The notes under the pieces: generated by a model | What the model was told of the DNA's origin: nothing | Database searches by the model: none | The model's input: only the letters and a program-made list of their open reading frames with translations | Shown: positions 6,318 through 39,646 of the stretch, piece after piece | Layout: every line of letters starts with the position of its first letter | Position numbering within the stretch: the stretch's first letter is position 1 | Assembly: GCA_017860615.1 (NCBI GenBank) | Contig: JAGDMU010000010.1 | Span: forward strand, 1-64,000 | Reading direction: 5' to 3' | DNA length: 64,000 nt | From: Pseudomonadota bacterium | GTDB taxonomy: Bacteria; Campylobacterota; Campylobacteria; Campylobacterales; Sulfurospirillaceae | Made by a program: the position numbers and the translations under genes

Positions 6318-6437
6318 GACTCGTTAGCTCAGTCGGTAGAGCATCTCCCTTTTAAGGAGGTGGTCGATGCGTCTAGTGGTCCAGGATCCCGCCCTTTCAC
6401 GGCGGTTACAGGGGTTCAAATCCCCTTGGGGTCGCCA
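6318..6437 (+). pseudogene. Chimeric tRNA: 5' tRNA-Lys fused to 3' tRNA-Glu(UUC)
   Basis: Bases 6318-6369 are identical to the first 52 bases of the intact tRNA-Lys at 6677, through the acceptor 5' strand, D arm, anticodon arm with TTT, variable loop and the first T-stem bases. At 6370 the sequence switches to tRNA-Glu, from about position 9 onward, with anticodon TTC (stem CCGCC/GGCGG), T arm and acceptor 3' strand TGGGGTC-G-CCA. The Lys part lacks its T arm and acceptor 3' strand. The Glu part lacks its acceptor 5' strand (GACCCCA expected). Neither half can fold as a normal tRNA. It looks like a deletion of roughly 65 bases from a tandem Lys-Glu pair like the one at 6677-6852. Confidence 0.8.
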
Positions 6438-32310: not shown

Positions 32311-33186
32311 ATGAAACTAAAAACAGAAGATTTTCTCGTGCACGAGGGCGCAAAGGTTGACCTTAAAAAGTCCCCTACCCTTGTTAAACCATTTTACAAA
32401 GACAAAGAAGACTACGAAGATGCACTCAAAGCAGGCGTAAAAGAGTTAAGCGACTTGCAAGAACTGCTTTACGCATCCAACAAATACGCCGTACTGTTGA
32501 TCTTTCAAGCCATGGATGCGGCGGGAAAAGATGGCGTCATACGGCATGTGCTATCAGGCATCAACCCTCAAGGCTGTCAGGTTTTCAGTTTCAAACACCC
32601 CGTTGCCGCTGAACTTGAGCATGATTTTCTCTGGCGTACGACGTGTGTTCTCCCTGAACGCGGGCAGATAGGCGTTTTTAACCGTTCCTATTATGAGGAA
32701 GTGCTCATCGTTCGGGTTCATCCTGAGATATTGCAAGGACAAGGACTGCCAGACCGCGTGCTCGATGAAGAGACGGTGTGGAAAGAGCGGTACCGCTCTA
32801 TCACTGATTTGGAAAACCATCTCCACCGCAACGGCACGAAAATCGTAAAATTTTTTCTCCATCTCTCCAAAGATGAGCAGAAAAAACGCTTCCTTGAACG
32901 CATCGACAAACCTAACAAAAACTGGAAATTTAGCATTGCAGACTTGGAAGAGCGAAAATACTGGAAACAGTACATGCACGCCTACGAGTCCTGTCTCAGC
33001 GCAACCAGCACCAAACATGCCCCATGGTACATCGTGCCCGCAGATGACAAAAAAAATGCTAGGCTCATCATCTCAAACATTCTTCTCGATACCTTCAAGT
33101 TGCTTGATATGCACTACCCTGAAACGGATGACAAACGTAAAGATGAGTTGAAAGTGATTCGCCAGAGGTTGGTTGAGGAGGAGTGA
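32311..33186 (+). CDS. ppk2: Polyphosphate kinase 2 family protein
   Basis: PPK2 enzymes transfer phosphate between polyphosphate and nucleoside di- or monophosphates. 291 residues. The Walker A loop is [10 protein letters not shown], Walker B lies in [19 protein letters not shown], and the lid module with conserved Arg residues is [17 protein letters not shown]. The single-domain length and the VRVHPE motif suggest class III or I; the nucleotide preference cannot be read from the sequence alone. Plausible role in nucleotide regeneration from polyphosphate under energy stress. Confidence 0.9.
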
Positions 33187-33225
33187 AAATAGGCTAAAGC
33201 TTTAGTACTCGCTTATCACATTCGC

Positions 33226-33231
33226 TATAAT
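33226..33231 (+). promoter_or_regulatory. -10 box (TATAAT) for the NTF2-like gene
   Basis: TTCGCTATAATTGAC, 32 bases before ATG 33263. Confidence 0.6.
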
Positions 33232-33262
33232 TGACTTATAACAATTATTTTAGGAATAAATC

Positions 33263-33637
33263 ATGAATCATTCACAGTTGATAGAACGCTACATCGAAGC
33301 GTACAATGCTTTTGACATCGATACCATGATAAGCACGCTCCACCCAAACATCACATTTCAAAACATTTCTAACGGCGAAGTTAACGCTGAAACACACGGC
33401 ATCGAAGCATTTCGTACCCTCGCCGAACAGTCCAAAGGACTTTTTACGTCTCGCAAACAGACCATCACCCACATCGAAACGAACGAGGATCAAACACGCA
33501 TAGATGTGGCATTTGAAGCTATACTCGCCATCGATCTACCCAACGGACTAAAAGCTGGCGAAACTCTCAAACTCCAAGGACGCTCAGAGTTTACATTTTG
33601 TGATGGGAAGATCATAAGTATTATAGATAGGGCTTGA
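33263..33637 (+). CDS. NTF2/SnoaL-like domain protein
   Basis: 124 residues. The N-terminus (LIERYIEAYNAFDIDTMISTLHPNITFQN) is characteristic of the cone-shaped NTF2-like fold, followed by an alternating strand pattern ending in EFTFCDGKIISIIDRA. Such domains act as small-molecule isomerases, hydrolases or binding modules. No catalytic assignment is possible. Single-gene unit with its own promoter. Confidence 0.8.
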   Translation: MNHSQLIERYIEAYNAFDIDTMISTLHPNITFQNISNGEVNAETHGIEAFRTLAEQSKGLFTSRKQTITHIETNEDQTRIDVAFEAILAIDLPNGLKAGETLKLQGRSEFTFCDGKIISIIDRA

Positions 33638-33643
33638 TAGTTT

Positions 33644-33655
33644 TTTACATGTAAA
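33644..33655. repeat. TTTACATGTAAA palindrome copy at the left edge of the R-M island
   Basis: Perfect 12-base palindrome 7 bases after the NTF2-like stop, just before the AT-rich island. Confidence 0.6.
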
Positions 33656-33786
33656 GGTGTCAGTTAGGAAAAGTTAAAAGTTTAGCCCTGCCCCCTATTC
33701 TTCCAGTGGGTATCCAAGAAGTATAGAAATATTACTAAAGGTACATAACAAGCAAAAAATTAGCACAAGATAAAAGCCTAAATGTG

Positions 33787-33792
33787 TATAAT
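33787..33792 (+). promoter_or_regulatory. -10 box (TATAAT) for the R-M operon
   Basis: ATGTGTATAATTACC, 48 bases before the methylase start; start expected near 33799. The rest of 33656-33839 shows no further gene-like signal. Confidence 0.6.
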
Positions 33793-33839
33793 TACCAACA
33801 AAGATATTACTGCAAGATTTAATTAATAGGATTAAGAAC

Positions 33840-36014
33840 ATGGATGAGTTAATAAAACAAGGGGAAAACGAAGGTTATATAGAGATTGACAAAGAAACAA
33901 ACTATATAACATATATACATCAAAAAAAAAGAAGAAATTTTAACAATCCAGAAGAAAAAATACAAGTACAAACTTTTTTAAAACTGATTTTAGAGTACAA
34001 ATATCCTGTTGAAAATATCGAGCAATTTGTTACTGTACAAATGGGCGTAGCAAAAAAAGAAGCTGATATTATTGTCTATAACGATAAAGACCATCTATCT
34101 CCTTACATTATCGTTGAATGTAAAAAAGAAGATATTTCAGAATTAGAGTTTAAAACGGCAGTCAATCAAGCATTTAGCTACGCAGTAACTGAAGGTGCAA
34201 AGTTTGTTTGGATAACCTCAGGTATTAAAAATGAATACTACCAAGTACCAAAGAAAAAACCAAAAGATAGAATAACCGTAGTTGATATACCTGCTCTTGG
34301 TGAAAAATTTGCCCCAAAATATAAATATGTAAAAGCTGACCCAAAATACCACGAGTTAGAAATAGTAACAGAAGATAATCTTACCAAAAGATTTAAACAA
34401 GCCCATAATGCGCTGTGGGCTGGTGGCGAACTTAACCCTAGTGAAGCTTTTGATGAGTTAGATAAATTAATATTTTGTAAGATTTGGGATGAGCGAAACT
34501 GTGCAAGAAAAGAGCCTTATAAATTTCAAGTTATCCCATTTATTGAAATAGATAAAGATGGTGATGAAGTAGAAAATAAAAGAATTACAAATAAAAACTT
34601 ACTTGATAGAATCCATGAACTTTATGCACAAGGAGCAGTTAAAGACCCAGAAGTTTTTAAAGACAGCATAAGGCTCAAGGCCGATAAAATTCGTACGGTT
34701 GTAGGTTATTTAGAGGGAATAAATCTCAATAAAACAGACTTAGATAGCAAAGGTAGAGCTTTTGAAACTTTTATGGGGTCATTTTTTCGAGGAGATTTTG
34801 GGCAATACTTTACACCAAGACCAATCGTAAAATTTATTGTTGATGTTTTACCTATAAAAAAAGATAGCTATGTACTTGATACATCATGTGGAAGTGGTGG
34901 TTTCTTACTTCATGCTCTTGATAAAGTAAGACATTTAGCAAATAAAGAATATCCTAATTATAAAACAGATACAGAAGATGCAAAAGACCATTATAAATAT
35001 TGGCATGATTTTGCCGAAAAAAATCTTTATGGAATAGAAATAAATGAGCAAATAGCAAGAACGGCTAAGATGAATATGATAATCCATGATGACGGACATA
35101 CGAATGTTATCTCTTGTGATGGACTACTTCAAATCACTCCTGAACCTGAACCTTTGTATGAAACAGATGACGAGCGAGAAGCTAGAAAAACAAGAAATGA
35201 AAATACTATACAAAAAAAAGGTAGAAACGATAAATTTAAAGAAAATCATTTTGACTTCATCCTTACCAACCCACCTTTTGGCTCATCTGTAAAGCAAACA
35301 GAAAAAGCATATTTACACCAATATGGTTTTGGTATGAAGGAAATTGATTGGCTAGATACTAGTGGAATTAAAAAAGGTAGAGAAAACCAAAGTACAGAAG
35401 TGCTTTTTATAGAACAAGCATACAATTTTTTAAAGGCAGGTAGCGGGATACTGGCTATCGTCATACCTGATGGGATACTTACAAACTCATCGCTTCAATA
35501 TGTAAGAGATAGCATAGAAGAGATGTATAGAATTATAGCTGTCGTGTCTATGCCTCAAACTGCCTTTAGTGCAACAGGTGCAGGTGTAAAAAGCAGTGTG
35601 CTATTTCTCAAAAAATACTCTGAACGTGAAAGTAGTAATATTAAAAACCTAAAGCTAAAACTTCAAGGCGATTTAGTAGTACAGCACAAATATAGACAAA
35701 AAGTAAAAGCTTTTGAAGATGAAAAAAAGCAAAAAATGAAAGAGTTAAATAGTCTCTATGCGAAAGATAGCGATACACTCAAAGAAGCAAAAGCAGAACT
35801 TTCAAAAGAGTATGCAGAAAAGCTATTAAACCTTAAAGATGAAATGAGAGAGTTATATAAAACCTCAAAAGAAGAGGCTTTGAAAAAATATGATTATGAT
35901 ATTTTTATGGCAATAGCTGAAGATATAGGCTACGATGCAACAGGAAAAGAGACAGGTAAAAATGAACTAGACTTCATAGCCCAAAAATTAAAAATTTTTA
36001 TTGAAAGTCTATAA
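33840..36014 (+). CDS. HsdR_N-type nuclease domain fused to N6-adenine DNA methyltransferase
   Basis: 724 residues. The N-terminal domain (about 25-150) has a PD-(D/E)XK nuclease pattern as in HsdR N-termini: Glu near 38-39, Asp76 in EADIIVY and Glu93-x-Lys95 in IIVECKKED. After a helical linker comes an HsdM-type methyltransferase with HsdM_N helices, AdoMet motif I (LDTSCGSGGF, 346-355) and catalytic NPPF (477-480). The end is a coiled coil (about 600-690). Nuclease-methylase fusion with a separate specificity protein resembles type IIB enzymes such as BcgI, and also HsdM variants carrying an HSDR_N domain. No translocating HsdR is present. GC is visibly lower than in flanking genes, suggesting horizontal gain. 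The stop is 1 base before hsdS. Confidence 0.88.
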   Translation: MDELIKQGENEGYIEIDKETNYITYIHQKKRRNFNNPEEKIQVQTFLKLILEYKYPVENIEQFVTVQMGVAKKEADIIVYNDKDHLSPYIIVECKKEDISELEFKTAVNQAFSYAVTEGAKFVWITSGIKNEYYQVPKKKPKDRITVVDIPALGEKFAPKYKYVKADPKYHELEIVTEDNLTKRFKQAHNALWAGGELNPSEAFDELDKLIFCKIWDERNCARKEPYKFQVIPFIEIDKDGDEVENKRITNKNLLDRIHELYAQGAVKDPEVFKDSIRLKADKIRTVVGYLEGINLNKTDLDSKGRAFETFMGSFFRGDFGQYFTPRPIVKFIVDVLPIKKDSYVLDTSCGSGGFLLHALDKVRHLANKEYPNYKTDTEDAKDHYKYWHDFAEKNLYGIEINEQIARTAKMNMIIHDDGHTNVISCDGLLQITPEPEPLYETDDEREARKTRNENTIQKKGRNDKFKENHFDFILTNPPFGSSVKQTEKAYLHQYGFGMKEIDWLDTSGIKKGRENQSTEVLFIEQAYNFLKAGSGILAIVIPDGILTNSSLQYVRDSIEEMYRIIAVVSMPQTAFSATGAGVKSSVLFLKKYSERESSNIKNLKLKLQGDLVVQHKYRQKVKAFEDEKKQKMKELNSLYAKDSDTLKEAKAELSKEYAEKLLNLKDEMRELYKTSKEEALKKYDYDIFMAIAEDIGYDATGKETGKNELDFIAQKLKIFIESL

Positions 36015-36015
36015 A

Positions 36016-37437
36016 ATGGCAGAAAAGATTTTTTTTATAAAATTTAGTCAAATAGGGGATAGATTAGATCCTTTATTTCATGTTGGAATGGAAAATATTA
36101 AAGTTAATATTGTTAAGAAATCTAAATATGAAAGTTATAATTTACATCAACTATGTACTATAAATCGTGGAAGATTTGGACATAGACCCAGAAATGATCC
36201 TAGATTTTATGGAGGTAAGTATCCGTTCATACAAACAGGAGATGTTGTAAATGCTTCAATAAATAATAGTCAAATAGAATATAAACAAACTCTTAATGAA
36301 CTTGGATTAGAAACAAGTAAATTATTTGAACCTCCAAAATTATTATTTACTATAGCAGCAAATATAGGAGATACCGCAATTTTAGATTATTCAAGTTGCT
36401 TCCCTGATAGTATAGTTGCTTTAATCCCAAAAGATGAAAAACTAAAAATTGACTATTTGAATATTTATTTTAAAATAATTAAGCCTTATATTGTTGCATT
36501 AGCACCTTACGCAGCTCAAAAAAATTTAAATAATCAGCAGTTATCAGAAATTCCAATTATTACACCTCCCTTAAATATTCAAAATCAACTTATTTTCAAG
36601 ATGGAAGAAGCCTACAAACGAAAAAAAGAAAAAGAAAAAGAAGCTCAAAATAAGCTAGATAGTATTGATGATTATCTTTTAAATGAACTAGGAATAAAAC
36701 CATTTAACGATGAAAAAGAGAATTTGGAGGATAGAGTATTTTTTAGAAAATATAGTGAAATTAGTAGTAATAGATTAGATGCTTTTTACTACAAAAATAT
36801 TTTTAATGAAGCTGAATTAAATTTCAATAAAACTAAAAATAATATAGTTTTATTGAAAAATATCTTAATTTTTTTAGAAAGTGGTAGTCGACCAGCTGGT
36901 GGAGTTAGAAATATTGAAAATGGTATTTTAAGCTTAGGTGGAGAACATGTAAATAATTTATGTGAAATAGAAATAAAAAATCCAAAATATATACCTCTAT
37001 CATTTCATAATAAAATTTTAAATACACAAACCAAACTAAATGATATTATTTTAGTAAAAGATGGTGCAACTACAGGTAAAATTGGAATTATAAGAAATAC
37101 TGAACATATCAATCAGAATATAAATGAACATGTTTTTATATTAAGACTCTTAAAAGAAATTAATCCAATATATATTTTAAATTTCTTAAATTCAACTATA
37201 GGACAAATTCAAATAAAAAGAGAAATTACAGGAGCTACGGTTACAGGACTGACAAAAGAAGCGGTTCATAAAATAAAAATATTGCTCCCTTCTATAGAAA
37301 TTCAAAATAAAATTGCAAAGCATATCCAAAACTTGCGAGATGAAGCACAAGCTTTAAAAGAGGAAGCAATACAAATTTTTGAAAACGCAAAAAACGAAGT
37401 TGAAAAGATGATATTGAAAGAACCCTCCGATGATTAA
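36016..37437 (+). CDS. hsdS: Restriction-modification specificity subunit (HsdS-like)
   Basis: 473 residues with the two-half layout of specificity proteins. Each half begins alike (FSQIGDRLDPLFH near residue 10; YSEISSNRLDAFYY near 240), carries a target-recognition domain, and ends in a helical spacer (LNIQNQLIFKMEEAYKRKKEKEKEAQ; IEIQNKIAKHIQNLRDEAQ). Two recognition domains predict a bipartite DNA target. ATG 36016 follows the methylase stop by one base; the in-frame TTG at 36001 lies inside that gene. This is the most AT-rich gene of the window. The target sequence cannot be inferred. Confidence 0.9.
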   Translation: MAEKIFFIKFSQIGDRLDPLFHVGMENIKVNIVKKSKYESYNLHQLCTINRGRFGHRPRNDPRFYGGKYPFIQTGDVVNASINNSQIEYKQTLNELGLETSKLFEPPKLLFTIAANIGDTAILDYSSCFPDSIVALIPKDEKLKIDYLNIYFKIIKPYIVALAPYAAQKNLNNQQLSEIPIITPPLNIQNQLIFKMEEAYKRKKEKEKEAQNKLDSIDDYLLNELGIKPFNDEKENLEDRVFFRKYSEISSNRLDAFYYKNIFNEAELNFNKTKNNIVLLKNILIFLESGSRPAGGVRNIENGILSLGGEHVNNLCEIEIKNPKYIPLSFHNKILNTQTKLNDIILVKDGATTGKIGIIRNTEHINQNINEHVFILRLLKEINPIYILNFLNSTIGQIQIKREITGATVTGLTKEAVHKIKILLPSIEIQNKIAKHIQNLRDEAQALKEEAIQIFENAKNEVEKMILKEPSDD

Positions 37438-37609
37438 ACTTCAAGAATTATTGAGAAAAACTTTTGATGAATATCCTACAATAAGGGCAATTATAAAGCT
37501 TCAATATATACCGTATCAAGAAAGCAATTATTACTCAGGAATCAAATCTATAGTTATAAATAATCTTCCTAAAATACTAGAAAAAGGTACTTGGTATGAA
37601 AATCCATGA
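37430..37609 (+). CDS. 59-residue ORF linking hsdS and the HNH gene
   Basis: ATG 37430 overlaps the hsdS stop by 8 bases (ATGATTAA) and its TGA at 37607-37609 lies 14 bases into the following gene, so all three are stitched together. The product (MIKLQELLRKTFDEYP ... GTWYENP) is mixed helix and strand, with no membrane segment and no recognisable motif; AT-rich like hsdS. Only a weak ribosome site is visible, so coupling to hsdS would be needed. It could be a small regulator, an inhibitor or a non-functional remnant. Confidence 0.5.
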   Translation: MIKLQELLRKTFDEYPTIRAIIKLQYIPYQESNYYSGIKSIVINNLPKILEKGTWYENP

Positions 37610-38285
37610 AAAATACCTCGAAGCATTAAAAACATTTGATGACTTTGTCACTGTTTCGGAGTGGGCGGTAAGATTTAGCGAGATGTACCCTGAACTTTTA
37701 GACAAAGCCAACAAAGAAGCGCAAAACCAAAAGAACGATACAACAGGTCTGCGTGAGCTTGCCGCGCGTATCTCTTCACGCCTTGCTACGGGTGGATTTG
37801 ATGGACTGGTTGAGATAGATGCAACCGAACGCCCACGTAAAGTCAAATACATCACCAAAGAAGAACTCAACGAAAAAACAACCCAAGAGCTAGAAGAAGA
37901 CATCGAGCCGCTTCGCCGTCAAGACATCATCAACCAAGCCAAAGAGAGTTTGGAAGCAAAAGAGCTTTACAGAATCAGTGAGTTTGAGAATATTCAAAAA
38001 AGTTTTAAAAACTTCTTTGGCATTGATTTCGAGATAGACCACGCTCAAGCACTTTTGGACAATGCCCAACAAGGCAAACACCACCCTAATAATTTTCAAC
38101 TTTTGCTTAAATACCACAATGTGAAAAAGTATAAAAACAGCTGGCAAAGATTTAGCATAGATGAGCAGATAGCCTATATTTGCAAAGTAATAGAATTGCA
38201 CAAAGTTTTGGAAGATAAGTTGTGCGTTAAACTCGATGAAGCTATTTTAGATAATTTGTTGAGTCGATTAAAAGCAGTTTATTAA
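37596..38285 (+). CDS. Winged-helix plus HNH-like nuclease candidate in the R-M operon
   Basis: 229 residues. The N-terminal 90 residues look like a winged-helix module (FVTVSEWAVRFSEMYPELL ... LRELAARISSRLATGGFDGLVEI ... RKVKYIT). After a charged helical linker (90-135), residues 144-183 carry an HNH-like pattern: IDH (His149), HHPNNFQLL (His162-163, Asn165-166) and YHN (His174, Asn175) followed by KK. No zinc-binding cysteines are seen. AAAAGG lies eight bases before ATG 37596. Base composition is host-like, unlike the AT-rich genes before it. As the last gene of the operon and with no HsdR present, it could be the cleaving component, a second nuclease, or an unrelated neighbour. Family not recognised with certainty. 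Confidence 0.7.
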   Translation: MKIHEKYLEALKTFDDFVTVSEWAVRFSEMYPELLDKANKEAQNQKNDTTGLRELAARISSRLATGGFDGLVEIDATERPRKVKYITKEELNEKTTQELEEDIEPLRRQDIINQAKESLEAKELYRISEFENIQKSFKNFFGIDFEIDHAQALLDNAQQGKHHPNNFQLLLKYHNVKKYKNSWQRFSIDEQIAYICKVIELHKVLEDKLCVKLDEAILDNLLSRLKAVY

Positions 38286-38309
38286 AGAAGCCCTAAAATA
38301 GGGCTTCTT
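38285..38309. terminator. Bidirectional terminator between the R-M operon and hcp
   Basis: AAGAAGCCCTA (38285-38295) and TAGGGCTTCTT (38299-38309) form an 11-bp stem with an AAA loop, A-rich before and T-rich after, so it can serve both converging transcripts. Confidence 0.88.
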
Positions 38310-38314
38310 CTAAA

Positions 38315-39646
38315 TTACGCAGGTTTTTTAAGCAATAATTTTTCCACGTCAGATGCCGCATCATCCGTCAAATGCAAGTTAAAGTTCTCTTGCAAGAATG
38401 CGAAGATGTCATCGTTCACAAATTGTGGTGGTTTTGGTCCGAGGTAGATGTTTTTGATGCCAAGGCTAAAGAGTCCTAGAAGAATAAGAACGGCTTTTTG
38501 CTCCATCCAGCTAAGAACGATAGAAACTGGAAGATCGTGTACTGTTACACCAAGTGCGCCTGCAAGGGCTAGAGCGATGTGAACCGCGCCATTGCTGTCA
38601 TTGCATTGACCGAGGTCTAGGTAGCGAGGAATGCCTGTGTCTGCAACAGTTCCAAAGTCGATGTCGTTAAATCTAAATTTACCACAACTTGAAGTCAAAA
38701 TCACGCAGTCATTGGGGAGGCTTTCTGCCATTTTTCTATAGTATTCGCCGCCACTTCCTGGAGCGTCACACCCTGCGATGACGAAGAACTGGCTGATTTT
38801 ACCTGCTTGAACGGCTTCAAGAATTTGAGGTGCAAGGCCAAGGATGGTTTTATAGTGATGACCTGTTACGAGTGTCTCGTCACTGTCAAAGCCTGTTACA
38901 TCGGGGAGTGCTAATGTTTGAGCGATGACTTCGCTGAAGTCGTTATTGTGGATTTTTTTGCCCTCTTTGATGCCTACGATGTCGTATGTGTAGAGTCTAT
39001 CAATATACGTTGAGTTTGATTTTGGAGGAACGATACAGTTGGTGTTAACGATGATAGTTCCGCCCCATTGCTCAAAGAGTTTGGTTTGGTCAAACCATGA
39101 TTTACCGATGTTACCTTTAAGATGAGGGTATTTTTTAAGCTCAGGATACGCATGTGCTGGAAGCATTTCTGAATGCGTATAAACATTGATGCCTTTACCT
39201 TCGGTTTGTTTCAAAAGCTCTAAGAACATGTCAAGATTGTGACCGCTTACTAAGATCGCTTTACCTTCAGCTTTGTTTTGACTGATTTGAACAGGAGTTG
39301 GAACACCAAGGTGAGAGGTGTGTGCATCACTTAAGATGTCCATCATTTTAACGCCTGCAGAGCCGATTTTCATCAGTTGAGCGATGTGATCGTCAAAGTT
39401 GAAGTTGACGTTGGTAAGGGTGAAGTAAAGTGTTTGAGCGATGACGTCATCGACTTCTTTGGTATTGGCACCAAATTCATTCGCATGCGTTCTATAAGCA
39501 CTAAGACCTTTAAGACCGTAAATCATGATGTCTTGAAGTTTTGCCAAGTTGGCATCTTTGCCACACGTTCCTACATCTTGACCTTTAGAACCACAGCCAT
39601 TGATGGCACTCATAGAGCATTGATCACATAACATGTTTAAAGACAT
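38315..39646 (-). CDS. hcp: Hybrid cluster protein (hydroxylamine reductase), short form
   Basis: Hcp reduces nitric oxide or hydroxylamine using a 4Fe-4S and a hybrid Fe-S-O cluster and protects against nitrosative stress. The N-terminal cluster cysteines are C7, C10, C18 and C28 in CDQCSMSAINGCGSKGQDVGTCGK. Hybrid-cluster ligands lie in SGHNLD, NTNCIVPP, IAGCDAPGSGGEYY, SSCGKFRFN and LGQCNDSNGA. At 443 residues it lacks roughly 100 residues relative to the approximately 550-residue class I proteins, as in the shorter class III. A Crp/Fnr-type palindrome upstream suggests induction by low oxygen or nitrogen stress. Confidence 0.92.
   Translation of the reverse strand: MSLNMLCDQCSMSAINGCGSKGQDVGTCGKDANLAKLQDIMIYGLKGLSAYRTHANEFGANTKEVDDVIAQTLYFTLTNVNFNFDDHIAQLMKIGSAGVKMMDILSDAHTSHLGVPTPVQISQNKAEGKAILVSGHNLDMFLELLKQTEGKGINVYTHSEMLPAHAYPELKKYPHLKGNIGKSWFDQTKLFEQWGGTIIVNTNCIVPPKSNSTYIDRLYTYDIVGIKEGKKIHNNDFSEVIAQTLALPDVTGFDSDETLVTGHHYKTILGLAPQILEAVQAGKISQFFVIAGCDAPGSGGEYYRKMAESLPNDCVILTSSCGKFRFNDIDFGTVADTGIPRYLDLGQCNDSNGAVHIALALAGALGVTVHDLPVSIVLSWMEQKAVLILLGLFSLGIKNIYLGPKPPQFVNDDIFAFLQENFNLHLTDDAASDVEKLLLKKPA

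Follow-up and report, generated by a model that had tools for sequence, protein, structure and literature searches.

The question raised by this locus is what kind of system is formed by a compact set of restriction-modification genes that holds two candidate nucleases and no hsdR. The first-pass annotation of the window (the whole 64,000-nucleotide stretch of DNA analysed here) had taken it for a BcgI-like enzyme with an added HNH nuclease or regulator, or for a new four-gene branch in which the HNH protein is the main effector. Our analysis indicates that the locus is quite probably a type IIB-like pair of genes, M and S, left from a three-gene M-S-E system and located upstream of a resident HNH gene.

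Gene layout of the locus

The ORF check returned the four genes at the positions already annotated, in the order M, S, a 59-codon ORF and HNH, all on the plus strand. M (33840..36014) encodes a BsaXI/BcgI-like nuclease-methyltransferase subunit of 724 aa, S (36016..37437) a specificity subunit with two target-recognition domains, and HNH (37596..38285) a 229-aa protein with a winged helix and a D-H-N-N pattern; the 59-codon ORF occupies 37430..37609. The genes do overlap or nearly touch, as had been described: the S stop (37437) lies 8 nt into the ORF that starts at 37430, and the ORF stop (37609) lies 14 nt into HNH, which starts at 37596. The likely start of S is the ATG at 36016, two bases past the M stop, with the TTG at 36001 as an alternative. 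The GC content is 0.26-0.32 across M, S and the 59-codon ORF (0.26 in the ORF) versus 0.39 in HNH.

The reported lack of HsdR was confirmed, with no separate hsdR adjacent to these genes or anywhere between 32 and 43 kb of the window. The single terminator that had been placed at the end of the gene set held up in part: a strong hairpin (38285..38309, fold of -16.1 kcal/mol) lies just 3' of the HNH stop, where the HNH and hcp genes converge, and is a putative two-way terminator, but the consensus terminator scan gave it no score because its T tract is weak.

Similarity of M and S to type IIB enzymes

Pfam searches found HSDR_N_2 (PF13588, 3e-16) and N6_Mtase (PF02384, 7e-33) in the single chain of M, and no match to HsdM_N. 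The PD-(D/E)XK nuclease domain spans residues 37-151 (33948..34292, plus strand) and the N6-adenine methyltransferase domain residues 302-636 (34743..35747, plus strand). The residues picked out in the first-pass annotation, D76, E93, K95 and the motif IV NPPF (N477-P-P-F480), are all present and, together with Q110, are invariant in 13 homologues. As a single sequence, M matched RM.BsaXI over residues 160-598, and a profile of 13 M proteins aligned residues 10-675 with residues 16-773 of RM.BsaXI (8w0p) at an E-value of 2e-81, nuclease domain included. By this alignment, D76, E93 and K95 of M correspond to D90, E105 and K107 of BsaXI, which mutation has shown to be essential for cleavage (PMC11997821). 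The nuclease of BsaXI has four such residues, E73, D90, E105 and K107 (PMC11997821), and the column of E73 holds F63 in M, with a Glu two positions earlier (E61); the nuclease activity of M is therefore not assured. Judged from a dN/dS of 0.105 against its homologue in L017 (an Arcobacter MAG), to which it is 81% identical, M is under purifying selection. Taken together, these alignments show M to carry a complete predicted nuclease domain and a complete predicted N6-adenine methyltransferase.

Two stretches of S match Methylase_S (PF01420), corresponding to two target-recognition domains and in agreement with the two-domain specificity protein annotated earlier. PADLOC assigned S to Specificity_I, with MAD5 under its cut-off, and the identity of S to its relatives is only ~27-35%.

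The two proteins resemble BsaXI (PDB 8w0p; PMC11997821) in that nuclease and methyltransferase share one chain, S is separate and the D/E/K residues are conserved. Unlike BsaXI, M is shorter (724 versus 916 aa) with a match that stops before the BsaXI paddle region, it has no Glu at the E73 position, and its relatives carry a third gene, E, which BsaXI lacks. The gene logic also follows that of BcgI and TstI, type IIB enzymes with an A (nuclease-methylase) and a B (specificity) gene, in a comparison of architecture only (PMC4027205 and general knowledge). The BcgI-like part of the earlier proposal thus largely stands, given the alignment of M with RM.BsaXI and the common occurrence of hsdR-less M-S relatives; M-S pairs without a third gene, M-S fusions among them, are frequent in viral contigs. 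Because of the full-length BsaXI match, the conserved D/E/K residues and these common pairs, M-S is most simply regarded as a type IIB-like enzyme. Type I restriction-modification differs in having the separate HsdR translocase that is missing beside M-S, as well as the HsdM_N domain that finds no match in M. MADS was also considered, since the best curated NCBIfam models were MAD2 for M (1e-87) and MAD5 for S (1e-28); however, M reached 294.7 of 720 bits and S 99.9 of 400 bits, and the other MADS proteins were not recognised next to M-S. With scores so far under the curated cut-offs, MADS membership was ruled out.

The 59-codon ORF and gene E

In L017, a gene for a 491-aa protein, E, lies between S and the HNH gene. 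A tblastn search (L017:6539-8014) matched residues 1-24 of the 59-codon ORF to the start of this protein and residues 23-58 to its end, with identities of 54% and 81%, respectively. In the DNA alignment to L017, the 5' match stops at 37501 and the 3' match begins at 37502, and a profile of eight E proteins matched the ORF in the same two pieces (E 1.2e-4). Since the ORF is similar to the two termini of E but to no part of its interior, it is an in-frame deletion remnant, with the start of E joined to its end at 37501..37502 (plus strand). As judged from these alignments, an in-frame deletion has reduced gene E from about 490 codons to 59, ~430 being gone relative to L017, and the ORF is not the gene in its own right as which it had been annotated. 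This remnant is the only E match in the genome of the window. The M tree groups the window with L017 (100/100) within the E-bearing clade, and E was lost in the window since its M is nested there.

The DGQHR model TIGR03187 matches all eight aligned E proteins, the first at 51.8 bits against a cut-off of 58.85. The motifs of the DGQHR family, QR, DGQHR and FxxxN (PMC4619093), have invariant counterparts in the eight proteins, namely Q37 of a QR pair, D133-R137 (DGNHR), and F171 and N175 (FxxxN). The C-terminal part of E matches PF05014 (Nuc_deoxyrib_tr) in 5/8 proteins (best 2.9e-7, below the Pfam cut-off) and the PADLOC TIR effector in 8/8 (best 2.6e-12), and among solved nucleoside-deoxyribosyltransferase (NDT) structures it matches PDB 2a0k (E 1.3e-5). 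E420, the putative catalytic Glu of this NDT/TIR-like domain, is invariant in the E proteins. The AlphaFold model of E (3 sequences) was too poor to be used (pLDDT 43), so that the NDT/TIR assignment is drawn from the profiles. On this basis, E appears to consist of a DGQHR/DndB-like domain followed by an NDT/TIR-like domain.

The literature assigns proteins of the DGQHR/DndB type to the ParB/Srx group and regards them as possible NTPases or nucleases (PMC10853773; PMC4619093). E shares the QR pair, the DGNHR pentapeptide and FxxxN with the DGQHR/DndB/DpdB family; unlike its members, it has the NDT/TIR-like domain in addition, and its genomic partner is an adenine methyltransferase rather than phosphorothioation or deazaguanine genes. 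In the open-access literature, we found no paper linking DGQHR with a TIR domain, none describing M-S-E, and no description of a restriction enzyme paired with an apparent DndB/TIR-type effector.

Association of M, S and E in other genomes

E was searched for in 397 genomes of the phylum (Campylobacterota). At all eight full-length or frameshifted E loci (G308, G147 twice, G382, G238, G077, G254 and G165), M and/or S adjoin E, and M-led matches added G033, G110 and G317. At one of these loci (L087:3054-6614, from G238), a single 1187-aa chain carries HSDR_N_2, N6_Mtase with a degenerate motif IV, an S-like part and E (DGQHR-NDT/TIR), in this order. A gene on a plasmid of Leisingera, an alphaproteobacterium, joins M (profile positions 111-477) in frame to E (111-484), as if the intervening part had been deleted. 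S also adjoins E on a mobile-element contig outside the phylum (L108). The plasmid and phage searches for E and HNH gave only the Leisingera fusion and a partial match in Rhizobium. On the M tree, the presence of E takes 3 changes, versus 8.0 in shuffles, none of the 500 shuffles being as low.

E is frameshifted at three loci (L080, L081 and L088), where the neighbouring M and S genes are intact; loss of E alone therefore appears to be recurrent. Homopolymer slippage as a source of phase variation in E was considered and is unsupported: the frames at these three loci are broken, and only 7-nt A/T runs were found. As a separate observation, behind an M 56% identical to that of the window (L078:4794-5879, from G177), the place of E is taken by a 361-aa protein without a family match.

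The HNH gene and a probable cassette exchange

The HNH-like motif noted earlier is real in terms of conservation, with D148-H149, N166 and N175 (D-H-N-N type) invariant in 12 homologues, though every Pfam HNH model stays under its cut-off for this protein; PF01844 gave an E-value of 0.018 in one homologue, also under the cut-off. Local matches to phage HNH proteins were found as well. In the structure model, the N-terminal half is winged-helix-like (helices and a beta-hairpin, pLDDT ~75-91), the region of the HNH motif is unreliable, and Foldseek returned no significant match (best E 0.13). HNH nucleases of the GmrD type also have the D-H-N-N pattern (PMC4619093); in contrast to them, the protein has an N-terminal winged helix, no GmrS domain and no family-model match. 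HNH matches occur in 12/397 Campylobacterota genomes and come close to full length in seven, and none was found on plasmids.

The genes upstream of HNH differ among these genomes: HsdM-S-R with YgjP in L015 and L016, M-S-E in L017 and L019 (S. arcachonense), GmrSD with DpnII in L066, HsdMS-AAA genes in L069 and L070, an AAA/OLD-like ATPase gene in L071, and other genes in L018, L020 and L067; in L065, the neighbour is a long CRISPR array. Conversely, most M-S-E loci have no HNH gene (L077, L079, L080, L081, L084, L085, L086 and L094). From its distribution and neighbours, HNH is a Campylobacterota-only gene, separate from M-S-E, that stands at the tail of various cassettes. In L073 and L074, what is left of the HNH gene is short, either residues 1-42 together with the last part or residues 1-20 alone; the remnant in L074 lies behind a type I cassette.

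L016, a Sulfurospirillaceae MAG, has the same flanking genes as the window, with a type I cassette including hsdR between them. Together with L019, which belongs to this family too, the synteny points to a Sulfurospirillaceae host for the window. Homology of the window to L016 (blastn) is lost at 33658 and returns at 37595, one base ahead of the HNH ATG, where the identity steps from ~0.3 to ~0.9; this cassette boundary (37595..37596) also coincides with the GC change. Upstream of the ATG the window resembles L017, and downstream the Sulfurospirillaceae HNH (93% identical). These alignments are most simply explained by an exchange of cassettes whose breakpoint lies within the opening bases of HNH. 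A gene whose upstream cassettes are swapped in this way would mean that a defence site is re-stocked at a fixed gene boundary.

Possible function of the locus and alternative explanations

A four-gene restriction system, in which HNH is added to M-S or is its main effector, would account for the overlapping, co-oriented M, S, ORF and HNH genes, for the recurrence of the order M-S-E-HNH in L017 and L019, and for the usual position of HNH behind restriction genes. This reading is improbable given that the eight M-S-E loci listed above lack HNH, that HNH follows type I, DpnII and other cassettes and lies beside CRISPR, and that the L016 homology begins exactly at the HNH ATG; co-occurrence of HNH with hsdM/hsdS is indeed seen elsewhere, but with several different systems. 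We give equally little weight to the idea that the 59-codon ORF encodes a working small protein, such as a regulator, an antitoxin or a coupler of S-HNH translation. In its favour, the ORF has kept an uninterrupted frame that overlaps the genes on either side, and its C-terminal stretch shares 79-81% identity with the E protein of L017, most differences being silent (pN 0.13, pS 0.86, 33 codons). Against this, each half of the ORF corresponds to one end of a longer protein that is already known, nothing similar of such short length turned up elsewhere, and neither catalytic domain of E remains in it. That the locus is a normal type I locus minus hsdR is extremely improbable. A full type I set with hsdR does occupy the same site in L016, as such a loss would lead one to look for, but its HsdM has HsdM_N and only ~23% identity to M, which has its own nuclease domain and the full-length BsaXI match. 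Since the L016 set is a different cassette, hsdR was not lost from the window, and with M families that differ this explanation was ruled out.

A weightier alternative, which we still consider unlikely, is that M-S is now a modification module only, that is, an orphan methyltransferase comparable to MAD2-MAD5 as the modifying part of MADS, and that restriction needed E and disappeared along with it. The curated models closest to M and S, MAD2 and MAD5 (far under cut-off), the F63 at the BsaXI E73 position and the three relatives that keep M intact beside a frameshifted E all fit such a module. On the other side, D76, E93, K95 and Q110 are invariant in the 13 homologues, as expected of a nuclease in use, E-less M-S pairs are common in viral contigs, and BsaXI works without a third protein.

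We therefore return to the type IIB-like M-S pair left from an M-S-E system. In such a system, an (M)2S complex, as in BsaXI, would bind a two-part site through the target-recognition domains; M-S would methylate adenine at host sites, and at unmodified sites the N-terminal PD-(D/E)XK domains would cleave the DNA to either side. Where relatives keep the system intact, E would probably be a second effector, whose DGNHR domain may bind DNA or a nucleotide and touch the M-S complex and whose NDT/TIR-like domain may degrade a nucleotide. The HNH protein would be a stand-alone accessory nuclease, its conserved 5' end marking the swaps of upstream cassettes. With the E arm gone in the window, only M-S activity can remain, either restriction and methylation or methylation alone, and most likely M-S would still function on its own, whether in the manner of a type IIB enzyme or by methylating only.

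More tentatively, M-S-E may be a so far undescribed composite defence in which a DGQHR-NDT/TIR suicide effector is guarded by the type IIB complex and breaks down a nucleotide when that complex encounters unmodified DNA or comes under attack, the window having deleted the suicide arm and kept the restriction pair. If M-S-E works in this way, DNA cleavage and abortive infection would be linked in one unit. The intact M-S-E relatives would be a more interesting object than the M-S pair of the window, and the window would then offer a natural experiment, an effector-less M-S beside that of its close relative L017, which keeps E.

Other features of the window

The interval between ppk2 and hcp (33186-38315 of the window; L096-L107) holds different gene sets across the genus, for example a gene for a 1243-aa protein, a methyltransferase-like cluster and small ORFs, which makes it a variable site and probably a defence hotspot. 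Elsewhere in the window, a 117-nt tRNA match at 6318-6434 (Rfam, 46 bits) was unreported by ARAGORN. It combines a Lys(UUU)-like 5' half with an apparent Glu-type 3' half, the anticodon and T arms being separated by 46 additional nt, and may represent a chimeric tRNA gene, or one that has decayed, within the Val-Asp-Lys-Glu cluster.
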